From: an uncultured Mucispirillum sp.
GTDB lineage: Bacteria > Chrysiogenota > Deferribacteres > Deferribacterales > Mucispirillaceae
Direction: 5' to 3'
NCBI GenBank assembly: GCA_944324495.1
Contig: CALUWN010000003.1
Coordinates: 84,204-148,203 of the forward strand
DNA: 64,000 bases
Shown here: piece by piece, positions 19,937 to 28,089 of the stretch
Position numbering within the stretch: the stretch's first letter is position 1
Layout: the number at the start of each line of letters is the position of its first letter
Position numbers and translations under genes: made by a program
The notes under the pieces: generated by a model
The model's input: the letters and a program-made list of their open reading frames with translations, nothing else
What the model was told of the DNA's origin: nothing
Databases searched by the model: none

Positions 19937-19969
19937 ATTCTATCACTTCACAATAAATTCACACACTTT

Positions 19970-20007
19970 AATTAGAGAGGGGAAGCATTTGCTTCCCTTT
20001 TCTAATT
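19970..20007 (+). terminator. Terminator-like hairpin after flgJ
   Basis: AATTAGAGAGGGGAAGC (19970-19986) pairs with GCTTCCCTTTTCTAATT (19991-20007) over 17 base pairs, three near the middle being G-U or A-U, with an ATTT loop. The U-tract lies inside the second arm, so termination may be partial. It separates flgI-flgJ from the flgM operon. Confidence 0.65.
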
Positions 20008-20022
20008 TAAAACACATTAATT

Positions 20023-20040
20023 TTGGCATAATAATTGCTT
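20023..20040 (+). promoter_or_regulatory. Sigma-54 (-24/-12) promoter upstream of flgM
   Basis: TTGGCATAATAATTGCTT carries GG at 20025-20026 and GC at 20037-20038 with the exact ten-base gap. A transcript from here starts near 20050 and has a ~165-base leader containing the left arm of the inverted repeat and the sigma-28 promoter. Confidence 0.8.
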
Positions 20041-20066
20041 ATAAATTTATGAAAAAATTTGTTTAC

Positions 20067-20093
20067 GGATAAGTTAGGCAAATTTACCTAAAT
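20067..20093. repeat. Left arm of inverted repeat bracketing flgM
   Basis: GGATAAGTTA, three bases, then AAATTTACCTAAAT. Its reverse complement recurs at 20536-20564 with a five-base central gap, giving 24 matching bases. The arm also contains a local palindrome, TTAGG...CCTAA. Confidence 0.8.
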
Positions 20094-20162
20094 ATCAGCA
20101 GGAGCGAAAAGGCATTAAAAAATATTTAGCAAAAAAATATTTAAATTTTTTTAAAAAAATGC

Positions 20163-20190
20163 TAAAGTTTTTTTTAGGTAAGGCCGATAG
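20163..20190 (+). promoter_or_regulatory. Sigma-28 (FliA) promoter for flgM
   Basis: TAAAGTTT at 20163-20170 and GCCGATAG at 20183-20190, 12 bases apart, against the consensus TAAAGTTT-N11-GCCGATAA. Only one base and one spacer position differ. Predicted start is near 20197, giving a short leader to the flgM ATG at 20215. Confidence 0.85.
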
Positions 20191-20214
20191 GGAAGATGAG
20201 CATTGGAGGATACT

Positions 20215-20517
20215 ATGAGAATTAATAGCAACATGATGAGTGGAATGGACACTCTTGAACAAACTTCCCGCGCAAAAAATGTGGAAAAAGTTTCTGCTGA
20301 GCAGCAACAAGCATCAACTGTAGAAAGTGATAATGTCACAATTTCAGAAAAAGGTAAAGATGTTTCTGAAATGACACGCACTTTAAAAAGTATGCCAGAA
20401 GTTAGGGCTGATAAAATAGCTGACTTAAAAGAACGTATTGCAAACGGCACTTACAATGTATCAGCTAGAGATGTGGCTGCTAAAATAGTTAATACTGCAT
20501 TAGACAATACTTTTTAA
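20215..20517 (+). CDS. flgM: Anti-sigma-28 factor FlgM
   Basis: Small cytosolic protein that holds sigma-28 until export through the completed hook. 100 residues from ATG 20215, chosen because GGAGGA sits four bases before it; an in-frame TTG at 20203 overlaps that site. The disordered, polar N-terminal half and the C-terminal MPEVRADKIADLKERIANGTY helix region match the family. It is driven by both sigma-54 and sigma-28 promoters and lies inside the inverted repeat. Confidence 0.92.
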   Translation: MRINSNMMSGMDTLEQTSRAKNVEKVSAEQQQASTVESDNVTISEKGKDVSEMTRTLKSMPEVRADKIADLKERIANGTYNVSARDVAAKIVNTALDNTF

Positions 20518-20535
20518 TTTAGCGGTAAAGTAAGA

Positions 20536-20564
20536 ATTTAGGTAAATTTCCATATAACTTATCC
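20536..20564. repeat. Right arm of inverted repeat bracketing flgM
   Basis: ATTTAGGTAAATTT, five bases, TAACTTATCC: the reverse complement of the two blocks at 20067-20093. It lies between the flgM stop and the flgN ribosome site at 20588. Confidence 0.8.
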
Positions 20565-20599: not shown

Positions 20600-21088
20600 A
20601 TGGAACACAATTCTTTTATTAATTTAGTGGAAATACTTAAATCACAAGTAGCCCACTATACAGATGTTAGGGACACATTAGCAGAGGAAAAAACGGCAGT
20701 TACAAGCTGGAATACTAAGGCTGTGTTTGAGCTTAACAAACATAAAGAACAGCTTGTAAAAAAAGAAAAACTGCTTGAAGAAGCACGTAAAACATTATCC
20801 ATGCGTATAATGCAGGAGTATGGTTTATCAGAAGATACTGTTTCTGCTATTATTGAAGTGTGTGATGATGAAGAAGTGCGTGAAGAGCTTATATCTCTGC
20901 GTGATAATCTTTTAATATTAGTTTCAGAAATATCTCAAATTACTGTTTCCTTAAAAGTTCTTTATAGTACTAACCTTAAAATTATGAACGATGTAAAAGT
21001 GCGTATGGGTTATCTGCCATCTAACAAGTATGGTATGGAGCAATCAAACACTTCATCTATCCCATCTTCCTTACAGGTAATAGGCTAA
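20600..21088 (+). CDS. flgN: FlgN-type export chaperone for FlgK/FlgL
   Basis: 162 residues, almost entirely helical and charged, without signal or membrane segment. Length, heptad pattern and place directly before flgK fit the FlgN family, which keeps the hook-filament junction proteins soluble and delivers them to the export gate. Sequence similarity in this family is low, so context carries much of the call. A strong AAGGGGGA lies six bases before the ATG. Confidence 0.8.
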   Translation: MEHNSFINLVEILKSQVAHYTDVRDTLAEEKTAVTSWNTKAVFELNKHKEQLVKKEKLLEEARKTLSMRIMQEYGLSEDTVSAIIEVCDDEEVREELISLRDNLLILVSEISQITVSLKVLYSTNLKIMNDVKVRMGYLPSNKYGMEQSNTSSIPSSLQVIG

Positions 21089-21100
21089 GGGAGGTGCAAT

Positions 21101-22870
21101 ATGAGTAATTTATTTGGTATGATATGGACTGGTGTATCAGGATTGAATGCAGCTCAAACTGGTATATCAGTTACTGGTAACAATATGGCAAATATGAAAA
21201 CGGAAAATTATTCCAGACAGACTGTGGAGCTTGTAACAAAAAAACCTCAGTACACATATAATGGTGCAATAGGTAAAGGTGTTGATGTGGCAGGTGTTAG
21301 AAGGGTGTATGATGATTTATTAGCATCTTCAGTTCGTACAACTAATTCTGCTTTACAGTATTATACATCCACAAGTTCTACGCTTCAAAGTGCTATGCTT
21401 TACTTTAATGAACTTGAATCAGGCTCAGGGTTAGGGGACGCTTTAAAAAATTACTTTAACGCATGGCAGGATTTAAGTAACTCAGCACCTGATGATACTT
21501 CTGAATCTTTAACAAAAAGAACAGTACTAGTGGAGGCTGCTGATACTTTAGCATCAAAAATTCAAGAAGGCTATAAATATTTAGAAGATGCTAGAAAACA
21601 GTGCGATACTATTATTCAGCAGGAAGTAGATTCTGTTAATGAAATAACTCAGCAAATAGCAAAACTTAATAAAGAGATTGTAGCAGCAGAAGCATTAGGG
21701 CAGCCAGCAAACGAATTAAGGGATATGCGTGATGGCTTAATTGATGATTTAGCAACAAAAACTGAAGTAACAACATATTTAAGAGAAGACGGCTCAATGT
21801 ATGTTTCTATGAAAGGTCAGACATTAGTTGATGGCGGCACTGCACACTTACTTTTAACTGAAAAAGACCCAAATAACAATAACCATTTAAAAGTAATGTG
21901 GAAAACAGACAACCCAAATTCTAAACCAATTGATATGACATCACTTATGAAAAACGGTACAATTGCAGCACAACTGCAGGTTCGTGATAATGAGTTAAAA
22001 CAGTATCAATCAGATTTAGATTCTTTGGCTAAAAAAATGATAGAAGAAACAAACAGAATCCACGCTACAGGTATGGGGCTTGATAGAGCTTCAGAATATA
22101 CTGGTAAAACACAAGTGATTAACCCAGAGTATGCTTTAAGCAGCCCAGAAGGTGGGCTTCCATATACTGTAAAAAGTGGTTCTTTTGAAATAAATGTATC
22201 TACTCCAACAGGAAAACAGGATGATGAAGGCAATGAAATATATGATAACAAAAAAATTGTTATTCAAGTAAATGAAAACGATACATTAAAAACAGTGCTT
22301 GCAAGAATAAACCAAGAAGCAGGTAATTTAGTATCTGCATCATTAAATATTGATAATACAGTTACTATTAAAGCAGCAGCAGGCTCATATATTTCATTTG
22401 CTAATGATACATCAGACTTTTTATTGGCAACTGGTATGAACTCATTCTTTTCAGGAAGTTCAGCTCAGGATATGACATTAAATTCATCTATTAAAGAAAA
22501 CCCAAGGTTAATTGCTGCTTCTGAATTTGGTGCAGAAGGTGATAATACAAATGCATTAAAAATTTCTAAATTACAGACAACAAGTTTTTCAACTGTAAAA
22601 GGAAATGTTACATTTTCAGCATTTTATGGATATTTTATAGGTGAGATGAGTAGTGCAAAATCTCAAGCAGAAACATATAAAACCACAACAAATATGGCTT
22701 ATACAGAGCTTAATACTCAGCTTATGTCAATACGTGGTGTATCTGAAGAAGATGAGCAGGTAAATTTGGTGCTTTATCAAAGAATGTATGAAGCAAACTC
22801 AAGGTATATTAATGTGGTAGATGAGATGTTAAACACATTAATAAACGGGCTTGGTTCAGTTGGCAGATAA
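21101..22870 (+). CDS. flgK: Flagellar hook-associated protein 1
   Basis: First hook-filament junction protein, 589 residues. The N-terminal D0 signature is GVSGLNAAQTGISVTGNNMANM with NYSRQ; the C-terminal D0 helix is NLVLYQRMYEANSRYI. A middle domain from about 340 to 450 carries a flagellin hook-IN-type motif (KKIVIQVNENDTLKTVLARI). AGGGAGGTG precedes the ATG. The last codons and stop overlap the sigma-54 promoter of flgL. Confidence 0.96.
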   Translation: MSNLFGMIWTGVSGLNAAQTGISVTGNNMANMKTENYSRQTVELVTKKPQYTYNGAIGKGVDVAGVRRVYDDLLASSVRTTNSALQYYTSTSSTLQSAMLYFNELESGSGLGDALKNYFNAWQDLSNSAPDDTSESLTKRTVLVEAADTLASKIQEGYKYLEDARKQCDTIIQQEVDSVNEITQQIAKLNKEIVAAEALGQPANELRDMRDGLIDDLATKTEVTTYLREDGSMYVSMKGQTLVDGGTAHLLLTEKDPNNNNHLKVMWKTDNPNSKPIDMTSLMKNGTIAAQLQVRDNELKQYQSDLDSLAKKMIEETNRIHATGMGLDRASEYTGKTQVINPEYALSSPEGGLPYTVKSGSFEINVSTPTGKQDDEGNEIYDNKKIVIQVNENDTLKTVLARINQEAGNLVSASLNIDNTVTIKAAAGSYISFANDTSDFLLATGMNSFFSGSSAQDMTLNSSIKENPRLIAASEFGAEGDNTNALKISKLQTTSFSTVKGNVTFSAFYGYFIGEMSSAKSQAETYKTTTNMAYTELNTQLMSIRGVSEEDEQVNLVLYQRMYEANSRYINVVDEMLNTLINGLGSVGR

Positions 22871-22925: not shown

Positions 22926-25900
22926 ATGAGAGTTACATTTAATATGCGTGCAATGCAGATGCAAAATATGCTTTCTACAAGCCTTTCAAATTACACTGAG
23001 GCAGTAAAAAAAGCAAGTGCTCAGAAGAATTTAATAAAACCGTGGGAAGATACAAGTAAGTATGTAGGAGCATACAACGTTCAAAATATGATTGATGAGC
23101 TTACACAGTTTAGTGAAAACGCAAATAGTGCTTCAAACTGGTTAAATAATACTGATGCAGAATTGCAGGAGCTTATTGAAGCATTAAAAAAAGCTCGTGA
23201 TGATTATGCTATTGCAGGAGCCTCTGATTCTTACGATGAAGAAAGCAGAAAAGCATTAGCTCAAGATGTATTAAGCCTTTATAATCAAATAATGGATATT
23301 GCTAATGCTAATTATAACGGCAGATATATTTTTGGTGGATATCAAACAGGAACACCGCCTTTTGCAGGTGGCACTAATGGTGTATCAAATGTAATCACTA
23401 AAAACCAAAACGGTGAAAATGTATCAGGGGACGCAATAGCTAAAGATGTATTTAGTGATATGACAGAGTTAAAATCTGGCAGATATACTGCAAAAGTTAC
23501 AGTTTTAGATGGTATTGCAAAATTACAGCTTTATGATGATAAAGGCAACCTTATGATAATGGATTCTAATGGTTCAGATGAATCAGGCGGTAATGGTAAC
23601 AAGGCTAATGTATCATTATCTTTTGAATATGAGCCGGGGAAAGTTATTAATACTGGCCGAGGTATATCATTTAAAATGCCAGATGATTTAGAAAACCCAA
23701 CAAGTATTGTTATGGAGTTTGATTATAAATCAGGCTCAGAAATCACATATCTTGGTGATAATGGGTCAATCTTTACTCAAATAGGATACAATCAAGATAT
23801 AGCTGTAAATATGCCGGGAAGCAGTATTTTTACCCAATCAAGTTTAATACTTCAAGGTTCAGCTTTTAATAAAGTAAACGGGCTTCCTGCAACAATTAAC
23901 AGTTTATTTTCAAGTTTAGATGGTACAAATATAAGTATTGGTGATTCAATAGAAATTGCAGGTACAGACCATAATGGTAACAAGGTAGGTACTGCAAGTT
24001 TAGTATCAAATACAAATCCAAGTTTAGATTTAGCTAATGCTTCAGAGAAAGAAAGAACATTAACTATCACTTATGGTGATAAACTTTATAAAGTAGTAGT
24101 GCCACAAAAAGCATACAATACAACAGAAGAATTAGCAGGTGCAATTAATAACGAGCTTAAAAATGCAGAATATCTAGGTGCATTAAATGGGCTTGGTGAT
24201 GTGGAAAATGTATCAATTGATGATTATCAAAATACAATTAATACACAGGTTAATTCAGGAAAATATGTAGGCGGTACAACTCAGGATGAGAAAAATAAAT
24301 ATAAAGTAGACTTATCTTCTCAACTTAAAATATCTGCTGATGGTGACAGGCTTAATTTTGCAAGTTTGAAAGCAGGTGATAATGTACGTATTGCAGTAAC
24401 AGGTACAGACCAAAGTTTACTTGGCTTTAAAGGTGCAACAGTTGCAGCAGAAGGAAAAGACACTATATTTGAAGTGGGCTATGATTTCCATAAAGATAAT
24501 ATAGAGCAAATTGAAACAACCCATGAAAATTTTGACTTAAAAGGTACAACATATACATTTTTTGTAAACGGTAAAGAGATAACTGTAAATAAACCAGCTA
24601 CTCAAACTACAACAACTAATATAACAAACCAAATATTAGGTGGAGTAGATGCTAATAATCAACCAAACGATATAGAACTACAAATTGCAGGAAAAACAAT
24701 AAAAATACCTGCAACAGAATTTGATGGTGCAATTGCAGCAGGGACTACTCCACAGGACTTTTTAAATGAGAAATTAAGAGAATATGGTTTAGGTGGTGAG
24801 GCAGCTATTACAAATGTAGTAGATAATGGTAATGGTACATATAATTTTGATGTATCAACTACAACACCTACTAAAAAAGATATAGAATATGCATTTGATG
24901 AGGCTTTAAGAAATGCAGGTTTTGATTTTGGTGTTAGTGTAAGCCTTGATTTAAACCCAAATGACCCAGCAAATGTAGGCAACTATGATATAACATTTTC
25001 TCTGCAAAACTACAATTCAAGCAGAGATGCAACATTAACTACAACTGCATATGATAGAAATACAATACCGCCAACATCTGACATGAAAACTGCAAAACTT
25101 GATAGAAGTGGAATGAATGCTGCAGAAGAAAAAACATTAGGTGATTATGTAGATTTCATAAAAGAGTTATATGGTCAAACAGTAGATGTATCTATTGTGG
25201 ACGGTAAATTAACTATTGCGGATTTAAGAAGTGGTGAAAGTAAACTTTCTTTTAGAACAAACGCACAAAACCAAGGTATAACTCATGCTAATGACCAGGT
25301 AACGATTGTAGGCGGAGCATATACAGGTAAAAGAGATGATAACTGGAAAGTTTCTGTTACAACCACATTAGGAACAAACGACCAAAGAAATGTATCTATA
25401 ACTATATTAGATAAAAATGGTAATAAAATATATGATGAAGTAACAACAGACTATAAAGGTGGCCCTATTCAGCTTCCAAACGGTGTAACTATCACTCCAG
25501 ATGATATGGAAATACCAAACCCATTAGACCCAACTAAAAGGGAGGCAACAACTACATTTCAAGTAGACTTAAAAGCGGAGCCGGGGCTTTCTTTTGGTGA
25601 TGTAAATATAACAGAAACTGGTAAAAACGTAAATATTTTCAGAGCATTAGAAAACTTAATGCACGCATTAGAGCATAATATTACTAAAAACGGTTTTGGT
25701 GAGCCTTCAGCTTGGCGTGCTACAGATTTAAACTCTACTGCAAAACCGTTTTTTGATGGCGTATTTCAAGGTAACTTTAATGATAACTGGAAATATGAAA
25801 TATTATCTCAAAACGATAAAACAGATTTTTACTTGCAAAACGAATATAAAACTACATCTGGCACAATAAAATACGATGCAGCATTAAATGCAAGTATTGC

Positions 25901-27341
25901 AAATACTCCATTAATGTTTGGTGTTGATATTTATGATAATAAAACAGGAAAAGTAAGAAGAGTTGATGTAAATATTGATTTAGCAAAAGCAAACCCTGCT
26001 ATTACAGATGCAGCTTCAGCTCAAGAATATATTTTAAAAGAATTAAATAATAATAAAGAGTTTGTAGATGCAGGTATTAAATTTGCAAATAATAATGGTG
26101 CAATAGAAATACAATCTGGCAGTGGTACAAAAATAGCAAACTTTGCAAATACGGCTGTAAGCACACAGGAAAGAGCATTAGCATCATACATTATGGGTTT
26201 TGAGACAGTTGCAAACGGTGCTTTAAAAGATGAATATACAGCAGCAGATTTTGATGCAGCAGGTTCTTTTACTTTCCGTGTGGCAGACCCACTTGACCCA
26301 GCAGGAGTTGGCTATAAAGAAATAACTATAACACCAGCAACTGACCCAATAAGTAAAAATGATTTACTTGCACAAATCAATGCTGCATTAAACGACCCAG
26401 CAACAGGTACAAACGGTAGAATAAAAGCAGATATTGCTCCAGATGGCTCAATTCAGTTTAAAACAGCAACTACAGATATTCCAGTGGAAGTAACAGTGCC
26501 AGCAGGGGAAGCTAACCCATTAAATATTGGGCTTACTCATGACCCAGTTACTGAACGTATTGCAGAATTAACAGTATCAGGCGTGCAAAGCCCAAAAACA
26601 GACCTTAGTGAGCTTGATGAAGCAGCAAGGTCATTAACAATAAAATATTTAGAAGGAGTAAACCCAGGCACACAAAAAGAAGTGAAAGTAACACTTGATA
26701 AGAAAGCATATACATCAGTGCAGGAAATGGCAGATGATATTAATAAACAGCTTCAAGCTCAAGGCATACCAGCAGCAAATATGAAAGCGGTAGTTAATAG
26801 CAATGGTGAGCTTGCATTTTCTAAAACAAGTGATGTTTATTCTTCTATTGTGGCAGAAGGTGATTATGCAGGAACATTAGGTTTTCCAAAAGCAGGCGAT
26901 AGTGTAGATATTAAAGTAACTAATGCAGATGGTGGCTTAGTACAAAATGTAACACTAGATACTGCTAATAAAAGTACATTTGTATCAGACGGGCTTCATT
27001 TAGGTTTTGATGCTGGCTCACTTAGTGCAACAGACAGCTTTACAGCAGCAGTAGGCAGTGGTATTGAAAATGAAATAGATACTTTAGATGCAGCAGTAAA
27101 CCAAGTATTACAGGCTGGTACAATTATTGGTACAAGAGGGCAAAGAGTAGAATCTGTTATTAAATTTCAAGAAACAGTTATAACAAACAGTGAAGAAATA
27201 AAAGCAGGTTATTTAGGTGCAACAGCCACTGATTTAGTTAAATTAAATGCAGATGTAGAGCTGTCATTAACAGCATATCAGTCAGCTATGAAATTAGTAA
27301 GAGGAATGGTTAGCATTTCTATACTAGATTTTCTTGGATAA
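22926..27341 (+). CDS. flgL: Giant hook-filament junction protein FlgL
   Basis: Second hook-filament junction protein, but 1471 residues against a usual 300-400. The first ~140 residues are a normal FlgL/flagellin N-terminus (MRVTFNMRAMQMQNM, ANANYNGRYIFGG), and the last ~90 a normal C-terminus (GTIIGTRGQRVESVIKFQE, LSLTAYQSAMKLV). Between them lie about 1200 residues of Thr/Asn/Gly-rich beta modules. Similar blocks recur, for example ERTLTITYGDKLYKVVVP near 377 and ARSLTIKYLEG near 1237, each followed by AYxxxxExAxxIN. These resemble hook-IN domains and should project from the junction. Driven by its own sigma-54 promoter. Confidence 0.93.
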   Translation: MRVTFNMRAMQMQNMLSTSLSNYTEAVKKASAQKNLIKPWEDTSKYVGAYNVQNMIDELTQFSENANSASNWLNNTDAELQELIEALKKARDDYAIAGASDSYDEESRKALAQDVLSLYNQIMDIANANYNGRYIFGGYQTGTPPFAGGTNGVSNVITKNQNGENVSGDAIAKDVFSDMTELKSGRYTAKVTVLDGIAKLQLYDDKGNLMIMDSNGSDESGGNGNKANVSLSFEYEPGKVINTGRGISFKMPDDLENPTSIVMEFDYKSGSEITYLGDNGSIFTQIGYNQDIAVNMPGSSIFTQSSLILQGSAFNKVNGLPATINSLFSSLDGTNISIGDSIEIAGTDHNGNKVGTASLVSNTNPSLDLANASEKERTLTITYGDKLYKVVVPQKAYNTTEELAGAINNELKNAEYLGALNGLGDVENVSIDDYQNTINTQVNSGKYVGGTTQDEKNKYKVDLSSQLKISADGDRLNFASLKAGDNVRIAVTGTDQSLLGFKGATVAAEGKDTIFEVGYDFHKDNIEQIETTHENFDLKGTTYTFFVNGKEITVNKPATQTTTTNITNQILGGVDANNQPNDIELQIAGKTIKIPATEFDGAIAAGTTPQDFLNEKLREYGLGGEAAITNVVDNGNGTYNFDVSTTTPTKKDIEYAFDEALRNAGFDFGVSVSLDLNPNDPANVGNYDITFSLQNYNSSRDATLTTTAYDRNTIPPTSDMKTAKLDRSGMNAAEEKTLGDYVDFIKELYGQTVDVSIVDGKLTIADLRSGESKLSFRTNAQNQGITHANDQVTIVGGAYTGKRDDNWKVSVTTTLGTNDQRNVSITILDKNGNKIYDEVTTDYKGGPIQLPNGVTITPDDMEIPNPLDPTKREATTTFQVDLKAEPGLSFGDVNITETGKNVNIFRALENLMHALEHNITKNGFGEPSAWRATDLNSTAKPFFDGVFQGNFNDNWKYEILSQNDKTDFYLQNEYKTTSGTIKYDAALNASIANTPLMFGVDIYDNKTGKVRRVDVNIDLAKANPAITDAASAQEYILKELNNNKEFVDAGIKFANNNGAIEIQSGSGTKIANFANTAVSTQERALASYIMGFETVANGALKDEYTAADFDAAGSFTFRVADPLDPAGVGYKEITITPATDPISKNDLLAQINAALNDPATGTNGRIKADIAPDGSIQFKTATTDIPVEVTVPAGEANPLNIGLTHDPVTERIAELTVSGVQSPKTDLSELDEAARSLTIKYLEGVNPGTQKEVKVTLDKKAYTSVQEMADDINKQLQAQGIPAANMKAVVNSNGELAFSKTSDVYSSIVAEGDYAGTLGFPKAGDSVDIKVTNADGGLVQNVTLDTANKSTFVSDGLHLGFDAGSLSATDSFTAAVGSGIENEIDTLDAAVNQVLQAGTIIGTRGQRVESVIKFQETVITNSEEIKAGYLGATATDLVKLNADVELSLTAYQSAMKLVRGMVSISILDFLG

Positions 27342-27416: not shown

Positions 27417-27845
27417 ATGAAGATTAATTCATCAAAATTAGGGGAGATTGAGTATAAAGAAGATGATGTCATCACTTTAAGTGCACCACTTCTTGGTTTT
27501 CCAGATTTGCAGGATTTTTTACTGATTTCTGACGATAACTCATATCCGTTTTTATGGTTTCAGTCTGTGGAGGATACTGATATTTGCTTCATACTTATTG
27601 AGACTAATACTTTCTTTAAGGATTATAACCCGTCTATCCCAAAAAGAGAATTAAAAGTATTAGCAGTAAGTGATGAAAAGGAAATGAAGATATTTTCTAT
27701 AGTTGTTGTTCCTACTGACCCAAAATTATCTACTGCAAACCTGCGAGCACCATTAGTAGTTAATTTTGAAAAAAAACTGGCGAAGCAGATTATTTTAGAT
27801 GATGATACTCTGATGATAAAAACGCCATTGTTTGAGAGTAAGTAA
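27417..27845 (+). CDS. fliW: Flagellar assembly factor and CsrA antagonist FliW
   Basis: 142 residues. In studied bacteria FliW binds flagellin and CsrA alternately, so free flagellin releases CsrA to repress translation. Family motifs visible: the GLLGF-like [18 protein letters not shown] and the C-terminal [20 protein letters not shown]. It has a ~75-base leader after flgL without a clear promoter. Its stop lies one base before the csrA ATG. Confidence 0.94.
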
Positions 27846-27846
27846 T

Positions 27847-28089
27847 ATGTTAGTACTCTCAAGAAAAAGCAACGAAAGCATAATGATTGGTGATGATATT
27901 GAAGTACGGGTGATAGAGATTACGGGTAAATCTATCAAACTGGGGATTGAAGCACCAAAAGATGTGGTAGTTCATAGAAAGGAAGTCTATGAAGCTATTA
28001 AAGATGAGAATATTCAGGCAGTTAGGAAAGAAACACCTAAAGAAAATATTATTTCATTATTAGAGTATTTTAATAAGCAGCACAAATAA
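27847..28089 (+). CDS. csrA: Translational regulator CsrA
   Basis: 80-residue dimeric RNA-binding protein. Starts at ATG 27847 (MLVLSRK, the universal N-terminus); an upstream in-frame TTG inside fliW is not needed. [32 protein letters not shown] and a short helix follow. The C-terminal tail to ~80 residues is longer than the 61 of E. coli and fits the type allosterically bound by FliW. It is immediately after fliW. Confidence 0.97.

Follow-up and report, generated by a model that had tools for sequence, protein, structure and literature searches.

What a pair of inverted repeats placed around a single flagellar gene might do is the question raised by this locus. The window, meaning the whole 64,000-nucleotide stretch of Mucispirillum DNA that was analysed, carries flgI, flgJ, flgM, flgN, flgK, flgL, fliW and csrA in that order, and the two arms of the repeat enclose flgM together with a sigma-28 promoter, leaving a sigma-54 promoter and flgN outside. 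A preliminary description of the locus had reported this arrangement and 24 matching bases between the arms; the enclosure, the arm positions and the number of matches were all verified (Table 1). Flagellar gene timing is a matter of sigma-factor switching, and folding models combined with genome comparison lead us to consider it probable, at roughly two in three, that the arms form a cis-acting, long-range RNA switch that reports which promoter made the transcript, with the sigma-54 leader unlocking flgN across flgM. Both promoters and their start sites are assigned by consensus, and the sigma-54 transcript is expected to begin near position 20050, the sigma-28 transcript about 6-8 bases past 20189.

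Table 1. Features of the flgM-flgN locus, numbered from the first base of the window.
Feature	Position	Strand	Sequence or evidence
Sigma-54 promoter	20024-20039	+	TGGCAT-N5-TTGCT; consensus match; kept in 10/10 Mucispirillum
Leader hairpin	20055-20085	+	AAATTTG / CAAATTT; loop displays GGATAAGTTAGG; predicted in the window sequence
Left arm (putative anti-sequestor)	20067-20093	+	GGATAAGTTAGGCAAATTTACCTAAAT; sigma-54 transcript only
Sigma-28 promoter	20163-20189	+	TAAAG...GCCGATA; consensus match; conserved genus-wide; downstream of left arm
flgM (anti-sigma-28)	20215-20517	+	Pfam FlgM, E 5e-20
Right arm (putative sequestor strand)	20536-20564	+	ATTTAGGTAAATTTCCATATAACTTATCC; alternative partners: left arm or flgN start region
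Hairpin burying flgN Shine-Dalgarno and start codon	20548-20605	+	predicted; -18.3 to -20.4 kcal/mol
flgN ribosome site and start codon	20587-20602	+	AAGGGGGA, ATG; direct reading
flgN (export chaperone for FlgK/FlgL)	20600-21088	+	Pfam FlgN, E 3e-7; predicted regulated gene

The complementarity of the arms consists of blocks of 10 and 14 bases, which supply the 24 matches, together with an internal GG:CC pair. Their duplex energy of -26.9 kcal/mol was equalled by only 1 of 40,000 random segment pairs drawn from the window at similar spacing. The pair is also unique, as the exact arm pattern occurs twice in the 2.43 Mb assembly, at the arms themselves, and the left-arm sequence matches only itself even when up to three mismatches are allowed.

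Both arms and both promoters are found, identically placed and oriented, in each of the ten Mucispirillum genomes, which are all the genomes of the genus in the comparison set, and most of the genus also shares the sequence immediately following the sigma-54 start. The arm sequences themselves differ between two sub-clades (for example, GGATAAGTTA / TAACTTATCC versus GGATAGCTTA / TAAGTTATCC), and despite this change the duplex formed by each genome's own arms stays between -23.4 and -26.9 kcal/mol in 10/10 genomes. When the left arm of one sub-clade is combined with the right arm of the other, pairing drops to as little as -14 kcal/mol. The preliminary description had suggested looking for the repeat pair around flgM in related genomes, and within the genus it is not only present throughout but maintained as a pair.

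The mismatches indicate which molecule is being conserved. Arm pairs aligned in fixed register contain 15 G.U cells and two other mismatches, with no A.C. Because G.U is found and A.C never is, and since the two would be equally wrong for DNA, the conserved object is the RNA of the + strand. The second sub-clade displays the same bias in its energies, where the sense duplex (-25 to -26 kcal/mol) is stronger than the antisense duplex (-15 to -21 kcal/mol) by 4 to 11 kcal/mol. A covariation test on the ten outer-helix pairs within the genus gave no gain over a shuffle control (91/500), with one pair changed on both sides; this lack of significance is due to the small number and close relationship of the sequences, in which variation is limited to few events.

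The function proposed for the stem comes from a second pairing partner of the right arm, which the preliminary description had missed. In one sub-clade TTTCCATA...TATCCC pairs with GGGATA...TATGGAA at the flgN start, and in the other TCCATA.GTT.ATCCTTAAA pairs with TTTAAGGAG.GAC...TATGGA. The resulting hairpin is predicted in 10/10 Mucispirillum genomes (z -2.9 to -4.4; energies in Table 1), and the flgN Shine-Dalgarno sequence that it buries, AAGG(A/G)GG, is likewise kept in all ten. The right arm can pair with the left arm or with the flgN start but not with both at once, and both alternative structures are conserved across the genus. A right arm that doubles as the strand sequestering the flgN start gives the stem a predicted function.

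We modelled the consequence by computing what it costs to open the flgN start when flgM, treated as though under translation, is kept from pairing, because whole-transcript folds in which flgM was free gave noisy arm pairing. The left arm precedes the sigma-28 promoter and is therefore missing from the sigma-28 transcript, in which the predicted opening cost is 12.8-18.7 kcal/mol, compared with 4.5-7.4 kcal/mol in the sigma-54 transcript. Dinucleotide-shuffled leaders gave mean costs of 11.0-15.7 kcal/mol; a shuffled leader performed as well as the real one in 1 of 30 trials in one genome and in 0 of 30 in each of the other nine. The outcome was independent of the length of the unpaired spacer. 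The best reading of the opening costs by transcript is therefore that flgN is accessible in the early transcript and closed in the late one. Of the readings offered in the preliminary description, that of an RNA stem formed only in the sigma-54 transcript and acting near the flgN ribosome site is thus the one that the models support well, while its proposals of an invertible switch and of regulator sites did not hold up, as discussed below.

From these structures we infer how the RNA folds in the cell, how this affects flgN translation, and the logic of making late FlgM without FlgN. In the sigma-28 transcript, the stretch following flgM would fold onto the flgN Shine-Dalgarno sequence and start codon, such that flgN would be poorly translated while the upstream flgM is made. 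In the sigma-54 transcript, the left arm would lie about 18 bases from the 5' end and could pair across flgM with the post-flgM stretch, displacing the hairpin and opening flgN. FlgN, and possibly FlgK through translational coupling, would then be produced mainly in the early sigma-54 phase, with the late sigma-28 promoter serving chiefly to top up FlgM.

If this is true, promoter choice would also set which gene of the operon is translated, by means of a leader that the late transcript lacks, and promoter switching during flagellar assembly would alter translation within an operon as well as transcription. It would be a compact means of producing FlgM late without the chaperone and the junction proteins, and would provide an RNA switch, open to testing, whose input is a transcription start site. 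The recurrent change of sequence with retention of pairing makes this case tractable by comparison.

Beyond the genus, flgM was found in 42 of the 48 genomes of the class, and a pattern search placed a sigma-54 site upstream of it in most of the other genomes of the order Deferribacterales that were examined. The sigma-54 leader, taken from the sigma-54 start to the sigma-28 -35 element, could be delimited in ten genera of the order, although those of f7g9 and f2g4 are short and the -12 element of f7g9 is poor. We paired each leader, within and between genera, with the junction running from the end of flgM to the flgN ribosome site. Every leader had its own junction as its best partner (10/10), and 7 of the 10 junctions had their own leader as theirs, the other three pairing better with the long, purine-rich leader of family f8. 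None of 200,000 permutations reached the observed mean pairing, and 1 of 200,000 did so when Mucispirillum was left out. Against shuffled sequence the mean z was -2.4 or lower in 8 of 10 genera; taken alone, the pairings of genera g3 and g14 were not above shuffles. Leader and junction sequences are unlike between families, and at the level of the order the sense strand was not favoured over the antisense.

How far the predicted switch extends along with this pairing is a separate matter. Family f6 has a flgN hairpin (TCTCATAACTGCCGAA...TTCGGAGGTATGAGA) and a leader arm (TATGAG.GCAGG...CGGG) that differ in sequence from those of Mucispirillum, and its opening cost is predicted to be 1.9-8.0 kcal/mol lower in the sigma-54 transcript. 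In f3 and f8 the gain is predicted at just 2-3 kcal/mol, and for families f2 and f7 and genus g3 the models show no opening of flgN by the leader, though all five have a leader/junction duplex. In f2, f3, f7, f8 and g3 this duplex often covers the flgM stop codon, which makes a more general role for it possible. Long-range pairing is therefore general in the order, with the modelled switch firm in Mucispirillum and f6 only, and weak or absent elsewhere; outside these two groups, the explanation is either a different mode of switching at loci with little distance between flgM and flgN, or an older, separate function of the pairing. That the whole order shares an RNA element decoding the sigma factor, in which only the anti-sequestor of the early sigma-54 transcript unlocks flgN some 500 bases away, is a proposition on which we see the balance as even.

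Several of these lineages merit mention in their own right. In f8 (L023, L025) the leader forms a duplex of about 26 pairs with the final codons of flgM and its stop codon; no other leader/junction duplex in the order is as strong. In genus g2 (L042-L045), flgM has no recognisable sigma-54 or sigma-28 site and is preceded by what, by eye, is apparently a sigma-70-like promoter (TTGATA...TATAAT), and the flgN hairpin is retained with compensating changes. At four flgM loci outside the class, two of them from the same phylum, the pattern search found no sigma-54 site.

Among the alternatives, the one to be taken most seriously is that the stem chiefly serves RNA processing or stability, with RNase III cutting the two-turn duplex and so separating flgM, in the sigma-54 transcript, from flgN, flgK and flgL, much as it acts on the stalks around rRNA. 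The duplex, which in 10/10 genomes has 22-26 pairs and one small internal loop, would suit the enzyme, which is encoded in the assembly, and the strong duplexes of f8 and f7, where the flgN switch is predicted to be slight or absent, would be easier to understand. Nevertheless, processing leaves unexplained why, throughout Mucispirillum and in f6, the right arm is also complementary to the flgN start, and we consider this serious rival unlikely to be the main explanation. More doubtful still is a role in trans, with the sigma-54 leader acting as a short RNA that opens flgN on sigma-28 transcripts. Conserved complementarity does not tell cis from trans, and a hairpin precedes the sigma-28 -35 element; however, the leader is already in cis on the sigma-54 transcript, and a search of it for a terminator-like site found none, which speaks against a separate leader RNA without being decisive.

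The two DNA-level readings fare worse than either of these. Paired operators can take the form of inverted repeats on either side of a promoter, and the preliminary description had raised paired sites for a DNA-binding regulator, pointing to an additional TTTAGGTAA at 20173-20181. That sequence is indeed present in the window, but it is not conserved in most other Mucispirillum genomes; with a single copy of the pair in the genome and arm differences that are G.U and not A.C, a regulator is very improbable. The invertible segment, flipping flgM and its sigma-28 promoter, was suggested by the enclosure of one promoter and one gene between inverted repeats and can be dismissed, given one orientation in 10/10 genomes, arms that are clearly imperfect in most species with G.U differences on one strand, and no match to the serine recombinase family PF00239 in the assembly, in a search confined to that family.

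The proposed cis-acting switch combines elements of known systems. Riboswitches and leader attenuators alternate between sequestor and anti-sequestor structures, one of which hides the Shine-Dalgarno sequence. The flgN locus similarly has two mutually exclusive predicted RNA structures, one of them over the Shine-Dalgarno sequence; unlike in riboswitches, the switch would respond to where transcription starts, and the anti-sequestor lies about 470 bases upstream. No Rfam family matched the flgM-flgN element at gathering score. In Salmonella, flgM is transcribed from an early and a late promoter, although the early one is not sigma-54 dependent as it appears to be in Mucispirillum. FlgM and FlgN are both class 2 products there (PMC8527033). 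A search of open-licence papers for long-range RNA pairing at flgM or flgN found nothing similar.

The nearest known principle is that of phage T4 gene e, whose longer, early transcripts fold so as to block the ribosome site; for T4 genes e, soc and 49, sequestration of this site depends on where the transcript starts (PMC3014915). At flgN, too, transcript length would decide whether a hairpin, predicted in 10/10 genomes, hides the ribosome site, the alternative transcripts being assigned by promoter consensus and differing in opening cost in silico. In contrast to gene e, where the longer transcript is closed, the longer transcript at flgN is predicted to be open, so that the polarity is reversed, and the anti-sequestor spans an intervening gene, flgM. 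For long-range pairing of untranslated stretches, the nearest case is icaR of Staphylococcus aureus, in which pairing of the 5' and 3' untranslated regions across the coding region is reported to affect translation (PMC3868564). Conserved complementarity of untranslated stretches flanking a coding region is a feature shared with flgM; the icaR pairing acts on the looped-out gene, whereas the flgM leader, supplied by only one of two promoters, would release the gene that follows, flgN.

Other features of the locus were noted. Between flgJ and the sigma-54 promoter, an inverted repeat with a T-rich right side (19967-20010) is likely the terminator of the upstream operon. A leader peptide was considered and rejected, as ATGAAAAAATTTGTTTACGGATAA would encode MKKFVYG* in some species and is frameshifted, or lacks a start or a stop, in others. 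An AT-rich palindrome (20131-20174) immediately precedes the sigma-28 -35 element, and a stem recurs at this position in relatives with a different sequence (for example, AGCCGTTTTTA / TAAAAACGGCT upstream of TAAAG in L013). The end of flgN and the flgK ribosome site can pair (21046-21112) in several Mucispirillum genomes; this predicted pairing is weak (z -0.8 to -3.1) and hints that translation of flgK may be coupled to that of flgN. The FlgL-like protein (22926-27341) has 1471 amino acids, far above the usual size, and comprises a flagellin N-terminal domain and a long middle part. Downstream of flgL lie fliW and csrA (27417-28089), and CsrA could be an additional actor on the leaders of the flgM-flgN operon.
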